39,316 nucleotides of DNA, from positions 1 through 39,316 of the forward strand of contig JAFYLS010000005.1 in NCBI GenBank assembly GCA_017550035.1, read 5' to 3'. Below the pieces are notes generated by a model. It saw nothing but the letters and a program-made list of their open reading frames with translations. It was not told where the DNA came from and ran no database searches. This stretch comes from Clostridia bacterium (GTDB lineage: Bacteria > Bacillota > Clostridia > Christensenellales > Aristaeellaceae). The translations under genes and the position numbers were made by a program. Shown here piece by piece: positions 10,843 through 19,285 of this stretch; position 1 is the first letter of the stretch, and each line of letters starts with the position of its first letter.

Positions 10843-11175
10843 TCAGGTTTCCTCCCTGTTGGTAACGGTTTCCAGCAGAATGCGTTTTTCAAAACCGCCC
10901 CGTTCCTGATGTTTTTGCATGCGGATGTGTTCCATTTCTTCCCAGGTGTATCCGCGGGCGCTGAGCACGGCGCGAAGTACTTCCACCAAATCGCAAATTT
11001 CTTCCAGGGACTTGCTTTCCTGGTATTCGTGCAGCTCTTCCGCAAGCTTTTTGTCCAGATGGAGCAGGTATTCTTCTTCATTCAGCGTGCGCAGGGTGCA
11101 GTTTTTGCCGCTTTGCTCAATAATCTCCGGAATCCGGTCCCGGACCAGCTTGCAGTATGCTTTTTGATCTTTCAT
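10843..11175 (-). CDS. MazG-like / phosphoribosyl-ATP pyrophosphohydrolase-like protein
   Basis: A 110-residue all-alpha NTP pyrophosphohydrolase-like protein. It opens with YCKLVRDRIPEII, the signature of the small 'phosphoribosyl-ATP pyrophosphohydrolase-like' house-cleaning family. The metal-binding helix pair includes KLAEELHEYQES and EEICDLVEVLRAVL, with the E-x-x-E / E-x-x-D type acidic residues. The family hydrolyses nucleoside triphosphates to monophosphate and pyrophosphate, often removing non-canonical nucleotides; the exact substrate is unknown. The start ATG at 11175 is 6 bases after a GAGG site; a GTG at 11187 would overlap the upstream gene. It is not in a his operon, which argues against a histidine role. 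Confidence 0.85.
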   Translation of the reverse strand: MKDQKAYCKLVRDRIPEIIEQSGKNCTLRTLNEEEYLLHLDKKLAEELHEYQESKSLEEICDLVEVLRAVLSARGYTWEEMEHIRMQKHQERGGFEKRILLETVTNREET

Positions 11176-11183
11176 GCTGTTCC

Positions 11184-11891
11184 TCACAGGTCAAATACGG
11201 CGGTGTGGGGACGGTGGTCGGATGCCACAATGGCGGGAATATCCGCTTCCAGCGCGGTAATATCGGGCGTGTGGAGCATGTAGTCGATCTTCATATCCGG
11301 GTCATCGGAGGGGTAGGAAAGCTTTTCTTCTTCCGTTTCATCCAGCAGCACAGCGGTATCTTTGAGGAAGGAAAAGAGGGGACAGAGCACCACGTCATCG
11401 GGCGTCATGTTGAAATCGCCCATCAGCAGCGCGCGCTGTGCCTGTACATGTTCGCAAAGCGTGATGACGGCGTTTTCGTGTTCGGGCGGCGTAAGACCGA
11501 TGTGAATTACGTTGACCTGCAAACCGCCCGGCACATCCAGTTCAGCCTGCAGAAGGCAGCGGGTTTCGTAATAATCATCCTCGCTCTTGTGTTCGGGTTC
11601 GGGCACCATGATGATGCGGGCGTCCAGAATGGGGTGGCGGGAGAGCAGCCCGTTTCCGTAAGGGCCTTCGCCCCATGCGTCAATGGCACGGGCAAAGAAC
11701 CAGTGGTAGCCCAGGCGTTTGGCTGCTTCTTCCACCTGGTTGGTAAACTCGCCGCCGCCGTATACTTCGTTGAGGGCGATGATGTCCGCGTCAAAGGCAC
11801 GGATGACTTTTTCAAACATATCCATGTCGATCTGCCGCGTAATATAGTTCAGAAAATGCTGTACATTAAAAGTGACGGCCTTAAAACGCAT
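11184..11891 (-). CDS. Endonuclease/exonuclease/phosphatase (EEP) family hydrolase
   Basis: A 235-residue EEP-fold protein, the superfamily of DNase I, exonuclease III and inositol phosphatases. Motifs in order: TFNVQHF (metal-binding Asn), IIALNEVYGG (catalytic Glu), YGNGLLSRHPI, LLMGDFNMTPDD (catalytic Asp/Asn) and VASDHRPH (terminal Asp-His). There is no signal peptide, so it is cytoplasmic. It is the first gene of a three-gene operon with a MazG-like pyrophosphohydrolase (gap 8 bases) and an MBL-fold hydrolase. The start follows AAGGAAG by 8 bases, with a promoter of TATAAT type 34-61 bases upstream. Whether it cleaves nucleic acid or a small phosphodiester cannot be told from sequence. 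Confidence 0.9.
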   Translation of the reverse strand: MRFKAVTFNVQHFLNYITRQIDMDMFEKVIRAFDADIIALNEVYGGGEFTNQVEEAAKRLGYHWFFARAIDAWGEGPYGNGLLSRHPILDARIIMVPEPEHKSEDDYYETRCLLQAELDVPGGLQVNVIHIGLTPPEHENAVITLCEHVQAQRALLMGDFNMTPDDVVLCPLFSFLKDTAVLLDETEEEKLSYPSDDPDMKIDYMLHTPDITALEADIPAIVASDHRPHTAVFDL

Positions 11892-11924
11892 AAAGATATC
11901 TTCCTTTCGGTATGTGCTGTGTTT

Positions 11925-11952
11925 ATTATAACCGCTTTTTCAAATCATGCAA
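11925..11952 (-). promoter_or_regulatory. Promoter of the EEP-MazG-MBL operon
   Basis: Minus strand: TTGCAT (11947-11952), a 16-bp spacer and a perfect TATAAT (11925-11930), divergent from the pssA promoter at 11982-12010. Confidence 0.65.
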
Positions 11953-11981
11953 GTTTTGGCTGCTGTGCGGTGAAATATTTC

Positions 11982-12010
11982 TTTACATCGCCTGCTTTGA
12001 ATGTTATAAT
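11982..12010 (+). promoter_or_regulatory. Promoter of pssA-psd
   Basis: TTTACA at 11982-11987, a 17-bp spacer and TATAAT at 12005-12010. This leaves a leader of about 100 bases before pssA, in which no strong structure was recognised. Confidence 0.75.
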
Positions 12011-12116
12011 TTTACAGAAGACGAATTTTGAAGAAACACAGGCTTTTTGGCAAAAGCGGGGTGCATTTTGCCGGAAAGCTGCAACACATTTGTACAGCAC
12101 AGAACGGATGATAAAT

Positions 12117-12857
12117 ATGATGAAGAAGTTAAAGGAAAAGCTCCGTTTTATCGGGTTTTATGATTATACCGTCATTCTCACCTACCTGAGTTTGTCTGCC
12201 GCCGTACTGGGTATGGCGCAGGCTATTCACGGGCAGTACAAAACGGCCATTTTCTATCTGGCTTTTGCCGGTATCTGCGATGCCTTTGACGGCCGTGTGG
12301 CCCGCAGCAAAAAGAACCGTACGGAAGATGAAAAGGCCTTTGGCATTCAGCTGGATTCTCTGTGCGATGTGATCTCTTTCGGTGTGTTTCCGGCCATGAT
12401 CTGCTATCTGCTGGGCGTGCGCGGCATTGTGGGTTCCGTGCTGGTGGCGTTCTACTGCATCTGCGCGGTGATCCGCCTGGCGTTCTTTAACGTGCTGGAA
12501 GCAAAGCGTCAGCAGGCGGAGGGAGAAGGCAGCGGCAACAAGGTCTATCACGGGCTGCCGGTTACATCCATGGCGTTTATCCTGCCCCTCATGTTCTGGA
12601 TTCAGTTCCTGGTGCCGGAAATGGTGTTCATTGCCCTGCTCCATGTGCTGCTTCCTCTGGTGGGCTTCCTCTTTATTCTGGATTTCCCCATGAAGAAGCC
12701 CTCTCTCAAACAGATTCTGATCATGATCTGCGTTGTTGCGGTGACGGTGGGCGCCATCTTTGGGTTTACCAAGTTCCGCCTGCCCCGTCAGGACAATGAG
12801 AATAATCCCATCGTGGAAGAATTGATCGGTGAATTCTATGAAGATGAAACGCCGTGA
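12117..12857 (+). CDS. pssA: CDP-diacylglycerol-serine O-phosphatidyltransferase
   Basis: A 246-residue integral membrane enzyme of the CDP-alcohol phosphatidyltransferase family, joining serine to CDP-diacylglycerol to give phosphatidylserine. The family signature D-x2-D-G-x2-A-R-(n)-G-x3-D-x3-D is complete: DAFDGRVARS followed by GIQLDSLCDVISFG. Several hydrophobic helices follow, and the C-terminal tail is acidic. The identity as serine enzyme rather than glycerol-phosphate or inositol enzyme rests on the overlapping phosphatidylserine decarboxylase gene immediately downstream. The start is uncertain: ATGs at 12108, 12117 and 12120 are all in frame, and 12117 has the most plausible ribosome-binding distance (GGATG). 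The long open frame upstream of the promoter is not coding. Confidence 0.93.
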   Translation: MMKKLKEKLRFIGFYDYTVILTYLSLSAAVLGMAQAIHGQYKTAIFYLAFAGICDAFDGRVARSKKNRTEDEKAFGIQLDSLCDVISFGVFPAMICYLLGVRGIVGSVLVAFYCICAVIRLAFFNVLEAKRQQAEGEGSGNKVYHGLPVTSMAFILPLMFWIQFLVPEMVFIALLHVLLPLVGFLFILDFPMKKPSLKQILIMICVVAVTVGAIFGFTKFRLPRQDNENNPIVEELIGEFYEDETP

Positions 12858-13833: not shown

Positions 13834-14445
13834 TTATTTCTGCATCAGGTTGTGGGGCATGGCCGGGTTGAAGGCGTAAAAGTTGTTGCAGTCCAGGTTG
13901 TTTTGCACAATGTCCAACCCTTCTGCAAAGCGCTGGTAGTGCACAATTTCCCGCTGCCGAAGGTATTTGAGCACATCTTTTACATCCGGGTCATCTGCCA
14001 GAAGCAGCAGGTTCTCGTAAGTGGTGCGGGCCTTCTGTTCGGCAGCCAGGTCTTCGTGCAGATCGGTGATGGGGTCGCCCTTTACGGCAATGGACGCCGC
14101 ATGGAAGGGCATGCCGCCAGCTGCTTGAGGATACACGCCGGCAGTATGATCGGTGAAATAAGCGTCAAAGCCGCCGTCTTCCAATTGCTGACAGGTCATA
14201 CCCCGGGTGAGCTGGTGGATCATGGCGCCTACGATTTCCAGGTGGCCAAGTTCTTCCACACCAATGTCCGTGAGCAGGCCTTTCAGTTCGCAGTTCGGCA
14301 TGGAAAAGCGCTGGCTCAGATACCGGAGGGAAGCGCCCAGTTCGCCGTCCGGTCCGCCGTACTGGCTGATAATGGCACTTGCCATCCGGGGATCGGGCTT
14401 CATGATACGCACGGGATACTGCAATTTCTTTTCATAGGCAAACAT
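13834..14445 (-). CDS. cotJC: Spore coat protein CotJC (manganese-catalase family)
   Basis: A 203-residue protein of the manganese catalase / CotJC family: a ferritin-like four-helix fold with a possible dimanganese site. Likely metal-binding segments are DGELGASLRYLSQRF, GVEELGHLEIVGAMIHQL (E-x-x-H), DLAAEQKARTTYENLLLL and REIVHYQRFAEGLD (E-x-x-H). In Bacillus subtilis CotJC is an inner-coat component made in the mother cell together with CotJA and CotJB; catalase activity has been suggested for the family but is not shown by sequence. The start lies 2 bases after the stop of the cotJA-cotJB fusion gene, so the two are one operon. It ends near a shared terminator. Confidence 0.92.
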   Translation of the reverse strand: MFAYEKKLQYPVRIMKPDPRMASAIISQYGGPDGELGASLRYLSQRFSMPNCELKGLLTDIGVEELGHLEIVGAMIHQLTRGMTCQQLEDGGFDAYFTDHTAGVYPQAAGGMPFHAASIAVKGDPITDLHEDLAAEQKARTTYENLLLLADDPDVKDVLKYLRQREIVHYQRFAEGLDIVQNNLDCNNFYAFNPAMPHNLMQK

Positions 14446-14447
14446 GG

Positions 14448-15104
14448 TTAGTTTTTCCCCCTTCCGTCACAGTTGGCAGCGTGTTCCCAGGGCCAGGGAT
14501 CCTGAATCCACTGCCATCTGCGGGTGCAGTCGGGGAGGAAAGCACAGGCGTAGTTGTTTTTGCCCATGTCCCGGCACAGACGGTTGAACAGGTTCAGCGC
14601 GTTGGTGTCGTGGGGATGGGTGTTCAGGTACAGGCGCAATTCCCACAGGGTGAAAGCCATCACCTGTTCCTGGGTGCAGCATACGCGGGTGCACTGATCG
14701 TTGCACAGCGTCATGGGTTTGTGAAGGGATTCATAAAGCGTGCCGCGCCGGAGCGCCTGCATGGGTTCGCAAAGCCCTTCAAAGTGCTGGTAGGCGGCAT
14801 AGACCATGCCGGGGGTGCGTCCGCGGTTCTTTTCCTGCTTGCAGGGCCGGTTATCATACGCCCCTTCCTCCTGCTTGCAGCAGCGGTTGTCATACGCGGA
14901 TTCATCCTGCTCACAGCAGGTATCATCGCGCCGCCTTTCCTGAACAGGGCAGGGTGTGGAATAATCATCCTGTCTGCAGGGCGCAGGCTGCTTTTCACAG
15001 CACATGGGCGGATCAATGGGCATATAGGGCATCTGCTGTTTTTCATCATCGCAAGAGGACGTCCATATACCGGGAAAATTGCCGTACGGCAGATCATAGC
15101 GCAT
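14448..15104 (-). CDS. Fused CotJA-CotJB spore coat protein with Cys-rich N-terminus
   Basis: A 218-residue protein that appears to join two normally separate spore-coat proteins. Residues 1-95 are a Cys- and Glu-rich region with imperfect repeats (ESAYDNRCCKQEEGAYDNRP). A CotJA-like block follows (AAYQHFEGLCEPMQALRRGT, LYESLHKPM), then a CotJB-like domain (VMAFTLWELRLYLNTHPHDT, FNRLCRDMGKN) ending in the typical WQWIQDPWPWE. In B. subtilis, CotJA and CotJB are separate proteins needed for assembly of CotJC; here cotJC follows immediately. The start is placed at ATG 15104 because GAAGGA lies 8 bases before it; ATG 15113 abuts that site. The promoter was not identified with confidence, although a mother-cell sigma factor is expected. 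Confidence 0.85.
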   Translation of the reverse strand: MRYDLPYGNFPGIWTSSCDDEKQQMPYMPIDPPMCCEKQPAPCRQDDYSTPCPVQERRRDDTCCEQDESAYDNRCCKQEEGAYDNRPCKQEKNRGRTPGMVYAAYQHFEGLCEPMQALRRGTLYESLHKPMTLCNDQCTRVCCTQEQVMAFTLWELRLYLNTHPHDTNALNLFNRLCRDMGKNNYACAFLPDCTRRWQWIQDPWPWEHAANCDGRGKN

Positions 15105-15206
15105 GGCGTTCATCCTTCCATGAAGAAGTGGGGACGGCGCTGCCTTCCCCGCACTATCAGCCTATGCGGTTGCGCAAAAAGGGTGAATAAGTAAATAAGA
15201 AGCAAA

Positions 15207-15238: not shown

Positions 15239-15976
15239 TTATGCGTATATGTGAATGAGCAGATTGCTCTTGCCTTTTTTGCTGATGGTTTCAATGCCCA
15301 TGTAGCGTGCTCTGCCAAAGCCGCGGACGGAGAGGATTTGTCCTTCTTTCAGCAGATAGTCTGTTTTTTCGCACACGCTGTCATCCACCATGATTTTGCC
15401 CTGCCGGAACAGCGTCTGCGCATCTCCGCGGCTTAATTTGAACAGGTGCGCCACGATGGCGTCCAGCCGGGGCGATGTGACCTGCACGCGCACTTCCTTA
15501 TATTTGCGCAGCGCGCCTTCGGGCGGCGCGGCATAGTCGCAGTTCACATCCGTATTGCCGATTTTTGTCAGGCTGGTGCGGATAAAATCTGCCATTTTGT
15601 CGGTGCAGAAAATGTATGCACCTTCGTCCCGGACCACGATATCGCCTACCAGTTCTCGTTCAATGCCAAGCCCCATCAGCGAACCCAGCACATCCCGGTG
15701 CGCAATGGGGGAAGAAAACTTCACGCTGCGGGGCGCCACCATCAGGCAGGCAAGAGGAAAGGTATATTCTTCAGGAGCTTCATCGCCGGAAAGCCCCAGC
15801 ATTTTGCGCTCGCAGTCTTCCGCACCGCCGAAAAAACGGTAGGCCGCGCCGGCTTTGCGGGCAAAAATCTCCGCTTCCTTCTGCTCGGTCAGGTTCAGAA
15901 AACGGCTGAAGAGCTTAATGTTGCGCTGGGCGGCGCGGGTGCAAAGCTCCTGAACATAGCGTGCGTTGTCTTCCAT
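15239..15976 (-). CDS. ylmH: YlmH-type S4 RNA-binding domain protein
   Basis: A 245-residue RNA-binding protein of the YlmH family. The N-terminal half is the YlmH-specific domain (RFLNLTEQKEAEIF, then SPIAHRDVLGSLMGLGIERE, LVGDIVV). The C-terminal third is an S4 domain (SPRLDAIVAHLFKLSRGDAQ, FRQGKIMVDD, LLKEGQILSVRGFGRARY). YlmH in B. subtilis binds ribosomes and has been linked to ribosome-associated quality control; it is usually encoded beside the division genes ylmD-G, whereas here it stands alone. ATG 15976 has an ideal AAGGAG site 6 bases upstream; an in-frame open extension upstream overlaps the promoter. It has its own promoter and terminator. Confidence 0.9.
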   Translation of the reverse strand: MEDNARYVQELCTRAAQRNIKLFSRFLNLTEQKEAEIFARKAGAAYRFFGGAEDCERKMLGLSGDEAPEEYTFPLACLMVAPRSVKFSSPIAHRDVLGSLMGLGIERELVGDIVVRDEGAYIFCTDKMADFIRTSLTKIGNTDVNCDYAAPPEGALRKYKEVRVQVTSPRLDAIVAHLFKLSRGDAQTLFRQGKIMVDDSVCEKTDYLLKEGQILSVRGFGRARYMGIETISKKGKSNLLIHIYA

Positions 15977-16015
15977 CCGGCACTCCTTGGGCGTTTTTTC
16001 TGATGGGTTTGTCCT

Positions 16016-16045
16016 ATTATAAGAAGCTCTGCGCGAATTTGTCAA
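16016..16045 (-). promoter_or_regulatory. Promoter of the ylmH-like gene
   Basis: Minus strand: consensus TTGACA (16040-16045), an 18-bp spacer and TATAAT (16016-16021), back to back with the promoter of the GTPase gene. Confidence 0.8.
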
Positions 16046-16052
16046 TCATCCA

Positions 16053-16081
16053 TTGAAAAAACGGCAGTCAGGCTGTATACT
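16053..16081 (+). promoter_or_regulatory. Promoter of the GTPase-NYN fusion gene
   Basis: TTGAAA at 16053-16058, a 17-bp spacer and TATACT at 16076-16081. Transcription would start near 16088, which makes the TTG at 16091 an unlikely start codon and supports the GTG at 16112. Confidence 0.75.
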
Positions 16082-16111
16082 GAATAAGACTTGATTGCAA
16101 AGGATGATTGT

Positions 16112-18757
16112 GTGCAGGCACAGGGAAAGAAATGGGTAGTAGGACTGCTGGCGCATGTGGATGCCGGCAAAACTACGCTCAGCGAAGGAATGCTCTTTCA
16201 GAGCGGTATGCTCAGGCGTCTGGGTCGTGTGGACCATCGTGACGCTTTTTTGGATACCGACGTGCAGGAAAGGGAACGGGGCATTACCATTTTTTCCAAG
16301 CAGGCGCTTTTGAACTGGAAGAATGCCCAGATCACGCTGCTGGATACCCCCGGCCATGCGGATTTTACCGCCGAAATGGAACGGACGCTGCAGGTGATGG
16401 ACTGTGCTGTGCTGCTCATCAGCGGTGCGGACGGCGTGCAGGGCCATACCCTGACGCTCTGGAAACTGCTGGAACGCTACCATGTGCCGGTATTCCTGTT
16501 TATCAATAAAATGGATCAGGAGGGTACGAACAGGGAAAAACTGCTTGCGCAATTGCAGCAGGAACTGTCCCCCGACTGTCTGGATTTCGGCGATGAAAAC
16601 CTGATGGATTCGCTGGCTATGTGTTCCGAAGACATGCTGACCCATTACCTGTCTCACGGCACGATTCCGGACGGCCCCATTGCCTCGGAGATTCAGAAAC
16701 GCAAAGTATTTCCCTGCTTTTTCGGCTCTGCCCTGAAAATGGAGGGCGTGGATACGCTGCTGGACGCCATTGTGCGCTTTGGCCCCCGGGTTTCCTATTC
16801 CGCCGATTTTGGTGCCCGTATTTACAAAATTGCCCGTGACCCTCAGGGTGCACGGCTTACCTATATGAAGGTGACGGGCGGCCGTCTGCGCGTCCGTGAT
16901 CTTTTGACCAACCGCCGCGCCGATATGCATGAAGACAGCATCTGGGCGGAAAAGGTGGGGCAGATCCGTCTGTATTCCGGCGCCAAATTCACGACTGTGG
17001 ATGAGGTGCCATCGGGCACGGTCTGTGCTGTGACCGGACTGAACTACACCCGTCCCGGCGAAGGGCTGGGATTTGAAAATCAGGGCAGAGCGCCTCTGAT
17101 GGAGCCGGTCTTTACTTATCAGGTGCTTTTGCCTAAGGGTACGGACGTGCATGCGGCGCTGAAAAACATGCGCATGCTGGAGGAAGAAGATCCGCTTTTA
17201 CACGTGGTGTGGCATGAGCGGGTGCAGGAGATCCATGTGCAATTGATGGGTGAAGTGCAGTTGGAAATCTTGAGCCGCGTCATGCAGGACCGCTTCAATA
17301 TGCCTATTTCCTTCAGCGAAGGCAGCATATTGTACCGCGAAACCATTGAGAATACGGTGGAAGGTGCAGGCCACTACGAGCCTTTGCGCCATTATGCCGA
17401 AGTACATTTGAAGCTGGAGCCGGGTAAAAAGGGCAGCGGCGTGCAGTTTGCTTCCCAGTGCCATCAGGATGACCTGGAAGTGAACTGGCAGCGGCTGATC
17501 ATGACTCATCTTTCTGAAAAGCAGCATTTGGGTGTGCTGACCGGGTCGCCCATTACGGACATCAAGATCACCCTGCTGGCAGGGCGTGCCCACCTCAAGC
17601 ATACCGAGGGCGGCGATTTTCGTCAGGCCACCTACCGCGCCGTGCGGCATGGACTTATGCAGGCAAAGCCGGTGCTGCTGGAGCCCTGGTACGATATCCG
17701 CCTGGATATCCCGCAGGATGCTTTGGGACGTGCCATGAACGATCTGCAGCAGTTGGGCGGCACCTTTGACCCGCCTGAAGGCACGGGCGACGTGGTCACA
17801 TTGAAGGGCGCCGCGCCCGTCAGTAAGGCTCGTCATTATGCTCGTCAGGTGACGGCGTACACCCGCGGCCGGGGTCGCATTACCTGCACGCTCCGCGGCT
17901 ACGAAAAATGCCCCGATCAGGACAGGATCGCCGCAGAGATCGGCTATGAGGCTGAGCGGGATGTGGAAAATACCGCCGACAGCGTGTTCTGCTCCCACGG
18001 TGCAGGCTTTGTGGTGAACTGGCGGGACGCCATGGACTACATGCATGTGCAGACAGCCTTTTCCGACGTGCGTCCGAAAAGCGATGAGGTGAACGCCGGT
18101 GCGCCCCGCCGCAGCAGTTATCAGGATTCGATGGCAGAGGATAAAGAACTGATGGCCATTTTCGAGCGCACCTATGGCCCGGTAAAAAACCGTACCTTCT
18201 TTGATGCTGTGCGCAAAACACCCGTGCCTCAGCAGAGCGTGCAGGTGGAAGCGCCCAGAAAAGAATATATTCTGGTGGACGGCTACAACATCATGCATGC
18301 CTGGGAGGAGCTGAAGGAAGCTGCCGAAAGCAGCCTGGAGCACGCCCGGCAGATGCTGATGGACAACCTGTGCGATTTTCGTGCCATGCAGGGCGCGGAA
18401 GTGATCCTGGTATTTGACGCCTACAAGGTGCAGGGCAACCCTGGATCGGCGGAACGGTATAACAACATCTACGTCATCTACACCAAAGAGGCCGAAACGG
18501 CGGACAGCTACATCGAAAAAACCACCTATGAGATCAGCAAGCGCCACCGGGTGCGTGTGGCCACTTCCGACGGGCTGGAGCAGATGATCATCCTGGGCAA
18601 CGGCGCGCTGCGCGTCAGCGCACAGGAATTCCGCAAAGAAGTGGAACTGTGCCATGTGGAGATCGAAAAGATCCTGCGCATGAACAACCGGCGCGTGGCA
18701 TCAGACGCCGTGGAAAGAGCCATGAAGGATGCGTGGAAGAAGAAATACAGGGGATGA
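16112..18757 (+). CDS. Tet(M)-like ribosome-binding GTPase fused to a YacP/NYN nuclease-like domain
   Basis: An 881-residue protein made of two parts. Residues 1 to about 650 form a translational GTPase like EF-G and the tetracycline ribosomal-protection proteins: AHVDAGKTT (14-22), QERERGITI (52-60), DTPGHADF (78-85) and NKMD (132-135) are all intact, followed by the beta-barrel and EF-G domains III-V. Residues 715-881 form an NYN domain of the YacP type, with LVDGYNIMHAW, ILVFDAY, ETADSYIE and VATSD carrying acidic residues at 723, 769, 798 and 820. YacP (Rae1) in B. subtilis is an endoribonuclease acting at the ribosome, so the fusion would place a nuclease on a ribosome-bound GTPase (inference). 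GTG 16112 is about 8 bases after AAAGGA. No terminator is seen. Confidence 0.9.
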   Translation: MQAQGKKWVVGLLAHVDAGKTTLSEGMLFQSGMLRRLGRVDHRDAFLDTDVQERERGITIFSKQALLNWKNAQITLLDTPGHADFTAEMERTLQVMDCAVLLISGADGVQGHTLTLWKLLERYHVPVFLFINKMDQEGTNREKLLAQLQQELSPDCLDFGDENLMDSLAMCSEDMLTHYLSHGTIPDGPIASEIQKRKVFPCFFGSALKMEGVDTLLDAIVRFGPRVSYSADFGARIYKIARDPQGARLTYMKVTGGRLRVRDLLTNRRADMHEDSIWAEKVGQIRLYSGAKFTTVDEVPSGTVCAVTGLNYTRPGEGLGFENQGRAPLMEPVFTYQVLLPKGTDVHAALKNMRMLEEEDPLLHVVWHERVQEIHVQLMGEVQLEILSRVMQDRFNMPISFSEGSILYRETIENTVEGAGHYEPLRHYAEVHLKLEPGKKGSGVQFASQCHQDDLEVNWQRLIMTHLSEKQHLGVLTGSPITDIKITLLAGRAHLKHTEGGDFRQATYRAVRHGLMQAKPVLLEPWYDIRLDIPQDALGRAMNDLQQLGGTFDPPEGTGDVVTLKGAAPVSKARHYARQVTAYTRGRGRITCTLRGYEKCPDQDRIAAEIGYEAERDVENTADSVFCSHGAGFVVNWRDAMDYMHVQTAFSDVRPKSDEVNAGAPRRSSYQDSMAEDKELMAIFERTYGPVKNRTFFDAVRKTPVPQQSVQVEAPRKEYILVDGYNIMHAWEELKEAAESSLEHARQMLMDNLCDFRAMQGAEVILVFDAYKVQGNPGSAERYNNIYVIYTKEAETADSYIEKTTYEISKRHRVRVATSDGLEQMIILGNGALRVSAQEFRKEVELCHVEIEKILRMNNRRVASDAVERAMKDAWKKKYRG

Positions 18758-18772
18758 TATGGCTGAAATTTC

Positions 18773-18801
18773 TTGACAGATGAAGGGCATAGTTGTATAA
18801 T
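18773..18801 (+). promoter_or_regulatory. Strong sigma-A promoter of the DUF4234 gene
   Basis: Perfect consensus TTGACA at 18773-18778, a 17-bp spacer and TATAAT at 18796-18801. It starts 15 bases after the GTPase gene. Confidence 0.92.
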
Positions 18802-18847: not shown

Positions 18848-19285
18848 ATGTTGAAAACCAATCGCAGTCTCCTGGCATTCATTCTTCTGAGTATCATTAC
18901 TCTGGGAATCTATCCGCTGTTCTTCTGGCATAAATATGCCAAGGAAATGAATGTGGCTTGCGGCGGAGACGGAAAGCATACCCGCGGCATCATCTTCCGC
19001 ATTATCGTTGGTGCAATTACCTTCGGTATCTATGAGTTCGTATGGCTGTATTCTGCCGGCGACCGTATTGCCTACTATTGCGCTAAGCGCAATCTGCCCT
19101 GCAAAACCAGCGGCGGCAGCGTGTTGCTGTGGTTCATCTTTGGCTCCATGCTGTTTGGCATTGGTCCTTTTGTGGCGATGTATAAGCTGTTCAACGGTAT
19201 GAACACCGTGTGCTCCGATTACAACGGCCGCGGCCGCAGCGCAGGTGCCAATGTGACCGTGAATGTTAACGTGCCCAACGCTTGA
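18848..19285 (+). CDS. DUF4234 membrane protein
   Basis: A 145-residue membrane protein of the DUF4234 type. It opens with LLAFILLSIITLGIYPLFFW, the hallmark 'xITxGIYxLxW' block, repeated in diverged form at FRIIVGAITFGIYEFVWLYS. A third hydrophobic segment (SVLLWFIFGSMLFGIGPFVA) and the amphipathic YKLFNGMNTVCSDYN follow. The soluble tail has a short alternating NVTVNVNVPNA run. Function unknown. A perfect consensus promoter and a GAGGGGG ribosome binding site suggest high expression. It is a single-gene unit ending at a bidirectional terminator. Confidence 0.88.
   Translation: MLKTNRSLLAFILLSIITLGIYPLFFWHKYAKEMNVACGGDGKHTRGIIFRIIVGAITFGIYEFVWLYSAGDRIAYYCAKRNLPCKTSGGSVLLWFIFGSMLFGIGPFVAMYKLFNGMNTVCSDYNGRGRSAGANVTVNVNVPNA

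Follow-up and report, generated by a model that had tools for sequence, protein, structure and literature searches.

Does a gene that joins a Tet(M)-like translational GTPase to a ribonuclease domain encode a tetracycline protection factor, or a nuclease that is carried to the ribosome by its own GTPase? This question is raised by a locus in a 39,316-nucleotide stretch of DNA from a Clostridia bacterium, analysed here at its full length and referred to as the window. The original prediction, made from the letters alone, described a complete GTPase fused to a YacP-type NYN nuclease domain and proposed that ribosome protection is linked to mRNA cleavage. The GTPase-NYN architecture is not new: it was first noted in 2015, when a YacP-like NYN domain was reported to have been acquired by the Tet proteins of ten Clostridiales and the fusion was suggested as a new resistance mechanism (Atkinson 2015, PMC4342817). 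No functional study of the fusion was found in our literature search, and none appears to have been published. NCBI annotates the copy in Monoglobus pectinilyticus as a “translation factor GTPase family protein”.

The gene consists of a single intact frame of 881 amino acids that begins with GTG (Table 1). The open frame reaches upstream as far as position 16091, and the GTG at 16112 is a good start. The claimed joining of the two halves was borne out, since the frame is intact, Pfam domains of both halves were recovered, and neither a stop nor a frameshift lies between the domains. The five domains of an EF-G/Tet-type translational GTPase (I–V) are followed in the same frame by a YacP/Rae1 NYN nuclease, the arrangement that defines the GTPase-NYN fusion family. 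An assembly accident was ruled out, as the same fusion is present at 79 other named genome loci and in 98 of 293 class genomes. If the possible promoter is used, the leader would be about 25 nt long, too short for a leader peptide of the tet(M) type. Perfect 12/12 matches to a TTGACA-TATAAT promoter flank the fusion, one (18773-18801, plus strand) preceding a DUF4234 gene (18848-19285) and the other (16045-16016, minus strand) preceding a divergent S4/YlmH-like gene (15239-16045). The structural model described below was produced by AlphaFold2 with 47 relatives and has a mean pLDDT of 85.6.

Table 1. Features of the fusion gene, with positions in the window and the basis of each assignment.
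Feature	Residues	Positions	Strand	Basis
Possible promoter, sigma-70-like, TTGAAA-17-TATACT		16053..16081	+	Consensus match only, 10/12
Ribosome-binding site AAGGA, 7 nt 5' of GTG		16100..16104	+	Read from sequence
Whole fusion gene		16112..18757	+	Open frame, ribosome-binding site, Pfam domains
GTPase (G) domain; P-loop AHVDAGKT, DTPGH, NKMD	10-223	16139..16780	+	PF00009 GTP_EFTU 4e-51
Domain II	235-317	16814..17062	+	PF22042
Domain III	331-400	17102..17311	+	PF14492 26.4 bits, cut-off 27
Domain IV	405-519	17324..17668	+	PF03764 6e-18
Domain IV tip GRAHLKHTEGGDF, at Tet loop III position	491-503	17582..17620	+	Alignment
Domain V	521-603	17672..17920	+	PF00679 2.5e-16
Conserved tail; C600, C627, H629, H645	600-645	17909..18046	+	Conservation counts
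Linker helix, motif ELxAIFERTYGxxK	669-692	18116..18187	+	70/79 fused proteins; model
YacP/Rae1 NYN nuclease domain	720-875	18269..18736	+	PF05991 1e-48; model match 5MQ9
D723 codon, aligned with Rae1 D7	723	18278..18280	+	Alignment
D769 codon, aligned with Rae1 D53	769	18416..18418	+	Alignment
D798 codon, aligned with Rae1 D81	798	18503..18505	+	Alignment
D820 codon, aligned with Rae1 D104	820	18569..18571	+	Alignment

The first half carries the G motifs and domains II–V of a translational GTPase of the EF-G superfamily. The GTPase had been described as complete with all G motifs, and this held across 74 fused proteins, in which G1 TT, DTPGH and NK.D are invariant. Domain III scores 0.6 bits below its Pfam cut-off; nevertheless, the modelled EF-G fold covers residues 1-614 (Z ~41 over 602 residues). 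The rmsd of this match, 10.6, is attributed to domains set differently, or to domain movement, in the model. Among the matches listed in the fold ranking of the model, Tet(M) is absent. The domain IV tip, GRAHxKHTEGGDF, is near-invariant among fused proteins. Against the EF-G family (TIGR00484) the protein scored 308 bits, below the cut-off of 659, and a separate EF-G is encoded in the window's own genome (L154).

The tail that follows domain V is common to the unfused orthologues of the GTPase, whose proteins end just after it. The fused proteins have C600, C627, H629 and H645 in this tail; K629 and C646 are found instead in many of the unfused orthologues. The four residues of the fused tail are suggestive of a possible metal site; such a site is not claimed, since H629 and the C646 of the unfused proteins are not cleanly complementary. 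Beyond the tail, residues 653-672 and 692-714 are disordered in the model; the helix that separates these stretches (669-688) bears the motif ELxAIFERTYG, kept in 70 of the 79 fused proteins. The confidence of this helix is ~85-89 when it is folded with the NYN domain alone versus 57-68 in the whole protein, and the higher value hints that it may pack on the NYN domain.

The nuclease half belongs to NYN_YacP (PF05991, 165.8 bits, cut-off 24.6), and its model matches Rae1 (5MQ9) with a Z of 19.9 and an rmsd of 1.8 over 133 residues. The gene coordinates and the residue numbers originally given for four retained acids were exact, with D at all four positions. Far from being lost in an alignment to Rae1, these PIN/NYN active-site acids match D7, D53, D81 and D104 of the Bacillus subtilis protein and are invariant in 74 fused proteins. 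Three reports describe Rae1 as an endoribonuclease of the ribosomal A site, acting on translating or stalled ribosomes in a translation-dependent manner (PMC6613710, PMC10100781, PMC12320835). A C-terminal helix, L..xR[RK], was found in 44 of 48 stand-alone YacP proteins versus 3 of 99 fused proteins; it is an observed feature rather than a formal criterion of the Rae1/YacP family, and the fusion lacks it. The substitution R166P is given among the loss-of-function rae1 alleles that suppress an efp mutant of B. subtilis (PMC6613710). Since the fused NYN domain is without the helix that contains the site of this disabling change, its activity could differ. As a guess, the linker motif might stand in place of the lost helix.

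The fusion is an old, common, chromosomal gene of many gut Clostridia. The class sample comprised genomes at least 95% complete plus the window's own bin (88%), such genome bins being incomplete; the fusion was found in 98, an unfused orthologue of the GTPase in 21, an ambiguous form in 5 and neither in 169 (n=293). A phylum-wide sample placed the fusion in further families as well, and a genome scan kept 80 named loci, all of the fused form and 79 of the 80 in one frame. A 517 kb “plasmid” record of Monoglobus with the fusion (L189, NZ_OY725736) could be chromosomal DNA under a wrong label. The fusion is also contained in two GenBank records labelled “Bacteriophage sp.”, MT835563 (L192) and MT835514. 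Phage carriage was rejected: in MT835563 the gene lies among ordinary bacterial genes, so the record looks like host DNA.

In a GTPase tree of 81 sequences, built by a quick method with SH-aLRT support only and with long branches for two sequences, one fused and one from the outgroup, 45 fused sequences formed one group (SH-aLRT 100) adjoining 24 unfused orthologues. Together, the fused and unfused GTPases were separate (SH-aLRT 100) from Tet(M), Tet(O), Tet(W) and Tet(36), and also from a further group of ~640-aa GTPases. A second Tet-like GTPase of the window's own genome (L153; contig C3, 683-2602, plus strand; ~640 aa) belongs to this further group, a clade distinct from Tet(M/O/W/36), and scores 478 bits where the Tet cut-off is 775. 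The fused domains in the NYN tree formed one group (100/98) bar two exceptions, a stand-alone sequence inside the group and a long-branched fused sequence outside it, and a single clade of fused NYN domains was not rejected (AU 0.278). Since the fused GTPases form one clade beside their unfused orthologues and the fused NYN domains nearly one clade, both halves predate the fusion. The simplest reading of the trees is one or very few fusion events of two pre-existing genes, perhaps with one later separation. Genome G522 encodes a stand-alone YacP inside the fused NYN clade as well as an unfused GTPase (L221/L167), and possibly represents such a separation.

Stand-alone YacP was found in 1 of 97 fused genomes versus 91 of 190 others in the class sample (Fisher 1e-19, with genomes taken as independent). 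Members of the window's family that have a stand-alone yacP carry it directly after rlmB, and the full locus of one relative (L244) reads thyX-rlmB-yacP-sigH. The own genome (L238) reads thyX-rlmB-sigH with ~25 bases from rlmB to sigH; the usual yacP slot is empty, and the fusion does not occupy the rlmB-sigH position typical of Rae1/YacP. In four other fused relatives, a sigH-like frame identified by eye directly follows rlmB. Long frames at some stand-alone YacP hits were rejected as RlmB-YacP fusions, being out-of-frame readings of the upstream gene. Genomes with the unfused GTPase had YacP in 15 of 21 cases versus 76 of 169 without the GTPase (class; p 0.035), and in relatives the counts were 9/11 versus 15/39 (p 0.016), a modest excess over expectation in a test that likewise counts genomes as independent. 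Of 297 genomes in the window's order, 243 have no YacP, and the sole congener searched has neither the fusion nor stand-alone YacP. From this rarity and the congener that lacks both forms, the loss of YacP in this order may have preceded the arrival of the fusion, which would then not have replaced it. The usual presence of the fusion in place of a separate Rae1 gene suggests that the two halves act together on stalled ribosomes.

Neighbour clustering around the 79 fused loci revealed no conserved operon partner, the clusters consisting mostly of antisense shadow frames with few weakly recurrent genes. Genes for cotJ/Mn-catalase are located near the fusion both in the window and in Monoglobus. 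This link was dismissed as coincidence, as the window's cotJ/Mn-catalase proteins were matched at none of the 79 other loci in a comparison covering frames of 90 aa or more, in which short CotJA/CotJB genes could be missed. In the window, a 221-aa frame (14448-15113, minus strand) contains both CotJA and CotJB domains, which the Monoglobus record splits over two genes, and adjoins a Mn-catalase/CotJC-like gene (13834-14445). Another frame (11157-12857, plus strand) encodes 566 aa, and its only recognised domain is a CDP-alcohol phosphatidyltransferase (340-490); its first ~335 residues are without a Pfam match, and a phosphatidylserine decarboxylase gene directly follows.

The resemblance to Tet(M) invites the reading developed from Atkinson 2015, in which a tetracycline-type protection protein is combined with an RNase, domain IV removing the drug and the NYN domain clearing mRNA from drug-stalled ribosomes. 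Such proteins were placed in the Tet subfamily in that study (PMC4342817), and tet_protect (NF012153) is the nearest NCBIfam model; however, its score of 405.6 bits falls well short of the Tet cut-off, 775. The tree, in which the Tet proteins are represented by Tet(M), Tet(O), Tet(W) and Tet(36) rather than by distant types such as Otr(A), also stands against this reading, with separate clades (SH-aLRT 100 each, quick method) for the fusion and for these four. Loop III, reported as key to tetracycline displacement (PMC4750697), is SPVSTPADF in these four proteins, the only ones compared, whereas fused and unfused proteins have AHxKHTxGGDF and the window protein reads AHLKHTEGG. The gene is, moreover, old, widespread and chromosomal rather than mobile. 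By score, loop and tree, identification as a tetracycline protein is not supported, and we regard this reading as improbable. Of the originally proposed link from Tet function to RNase, an idea in print since 2015, tetracycline protection is not supported, and an RNase tethered to a ribosome factor remains the natural reading, since an intact GTPase and an intact Rae1-type domain occur in one protein. The fusion also cautions against listing such widespread gut genes among tetracycline resistance genes on the strength of a likeness to Tet(M) alone.

Other functions can be considered for such a tethered RNase. The first function predicted for NYN/YacP was rRNA/tRNA maturation (cited in PMC4342817), stand-alone yacP adjoins the rRNA methylase gene rlmB, and several trGTPases act in assembly; the fusion might then be a maturation or ribosome-assembly factor, with the GTPase on a maturing subunit and the NYN domain trimming rRNA or tRNA precursors. 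We consider this unlikely, as the characterised relative Rae1 cleaves mRNA on translating ribosomes according to the reports cited above, and EF-G-type domains IV and V suggest binding to the 70S A site. A GTPase that moves or empties the ribosome after the NYN domain has cut, so that the fusion only couples consecutive steps, also seems rather unlikely. It would fit the six class genomes that have the unfused GTPase without any YacP, which imply a job of its own, and the probably exclusive occupancy of the A site by the two halves, but it does not specifically explain why stand-alone YacP is almost never found in fused genomes. A role in defence or stress, with mRNA being cut where phage or another attack has disturbed the ribosomes, is very improbable. 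NYN RNases are effectors elsewhere, for example the CRISPR-associated NYN ribonuclease (PMC11346440), but the neighbours of the fusion vary without forming a defence-type neighbourhood, and its presence is broad and vertical-looking.

On balance, and by a narrow preference, we interpret the fusion as an mRNA endonuclease of the Rae1 type that depends on the ribosome, is carried by an EF-G-like A-site GTPase of its own and takes the place of stand-alone Rae1 in this lineage; it would be a no-go-decay factor in a single protein. This interpretation draws on the invariant G motifs and NYN acids, the trees that point to one or very few fusion events, the rarity of stand-alone YacP in fused genomes and the rlmB-sigH slot that is empty in the own genome. 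It also draws on the match of the NYN model to Rae1, the role of Rae1 as an A-site endoribonuclease, the disordered linker with its helix, and the unfused orthologues of both halves, the unfused GTPase often accompanying YacP. We infer ribosome binding, GTP hydrolysis, mRNA cleavage, the order of these steps and the kind of stall that is recognised. The A site is also reached by domain IV of EF-G and Tet proteins. A Rae1 domain and such a domain IV would exclude each other there, so recognition and cutting would be sequential. In the GTP form, domains I–V would bind the factor site of a ribosome with an empty or blocked A site. Hydrolysis of GTP on the ribosome would free the A site of domain IV, and the NYN domain, on a flexible linker of ~75 residues, would then enter and cleave the transcript within or close to the A-site codon. 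Degradation of the truncated mRNA and rescue of the ribosome would follow.

More tentatively, and with less expectation that it is correct, the fusion may constitute no-go decay in one polypeptide, in which the GTPase samples stalled A sites and hydrolysis times the entry of Rae1; where the genes are separate, Rae1 and the GTPase would be partners. If true, the GTPase would be an unrecognised co-factor of Rae1 in Clostridia. How bacteria choose stalled ribosomes for mRNA cutting is poorly understood, and a fusion that about one third of the sampled Clostridia retain, while others have its parts as separate genes, points to cooperation of a GTPase with Rae1. The fusion provides a clean genetic and biochemical test.

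The fusion can be compared with several known systems. Rae1/YacP of B. subtilis (5MQ8, 5MQ9) shares the NYN fold, the four acidic residues and ~40% identity with its nuclease half, whereas Rae1 is a stand-alone gene after rlmB and has a C-terminal helix with R166, both of which are missing from the fusion. Tet(M), Tet(O) and Tet(W) have the same domain order I–V and 28-29% identity over 66% of the query; the fusion differs from them in the absent SPVSTP loop III, another C-terminal tail and its separate clade. The five-domain fold is common to EF-G, in which the position of AHxKH at the domain IV tip of the fusion is occupied by YHDVD, and the two differ in this tip, the tail and the NYN domain. 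The M. pectinilyticus copy has the same domain order and 55.5% identity over 96% of the query. In the system described by Atkinson 2015, the protein was a Tet protein with an extra domain, whereas here it is a GTPase outside Tet(M/O/W/36), with unfused orthologues.
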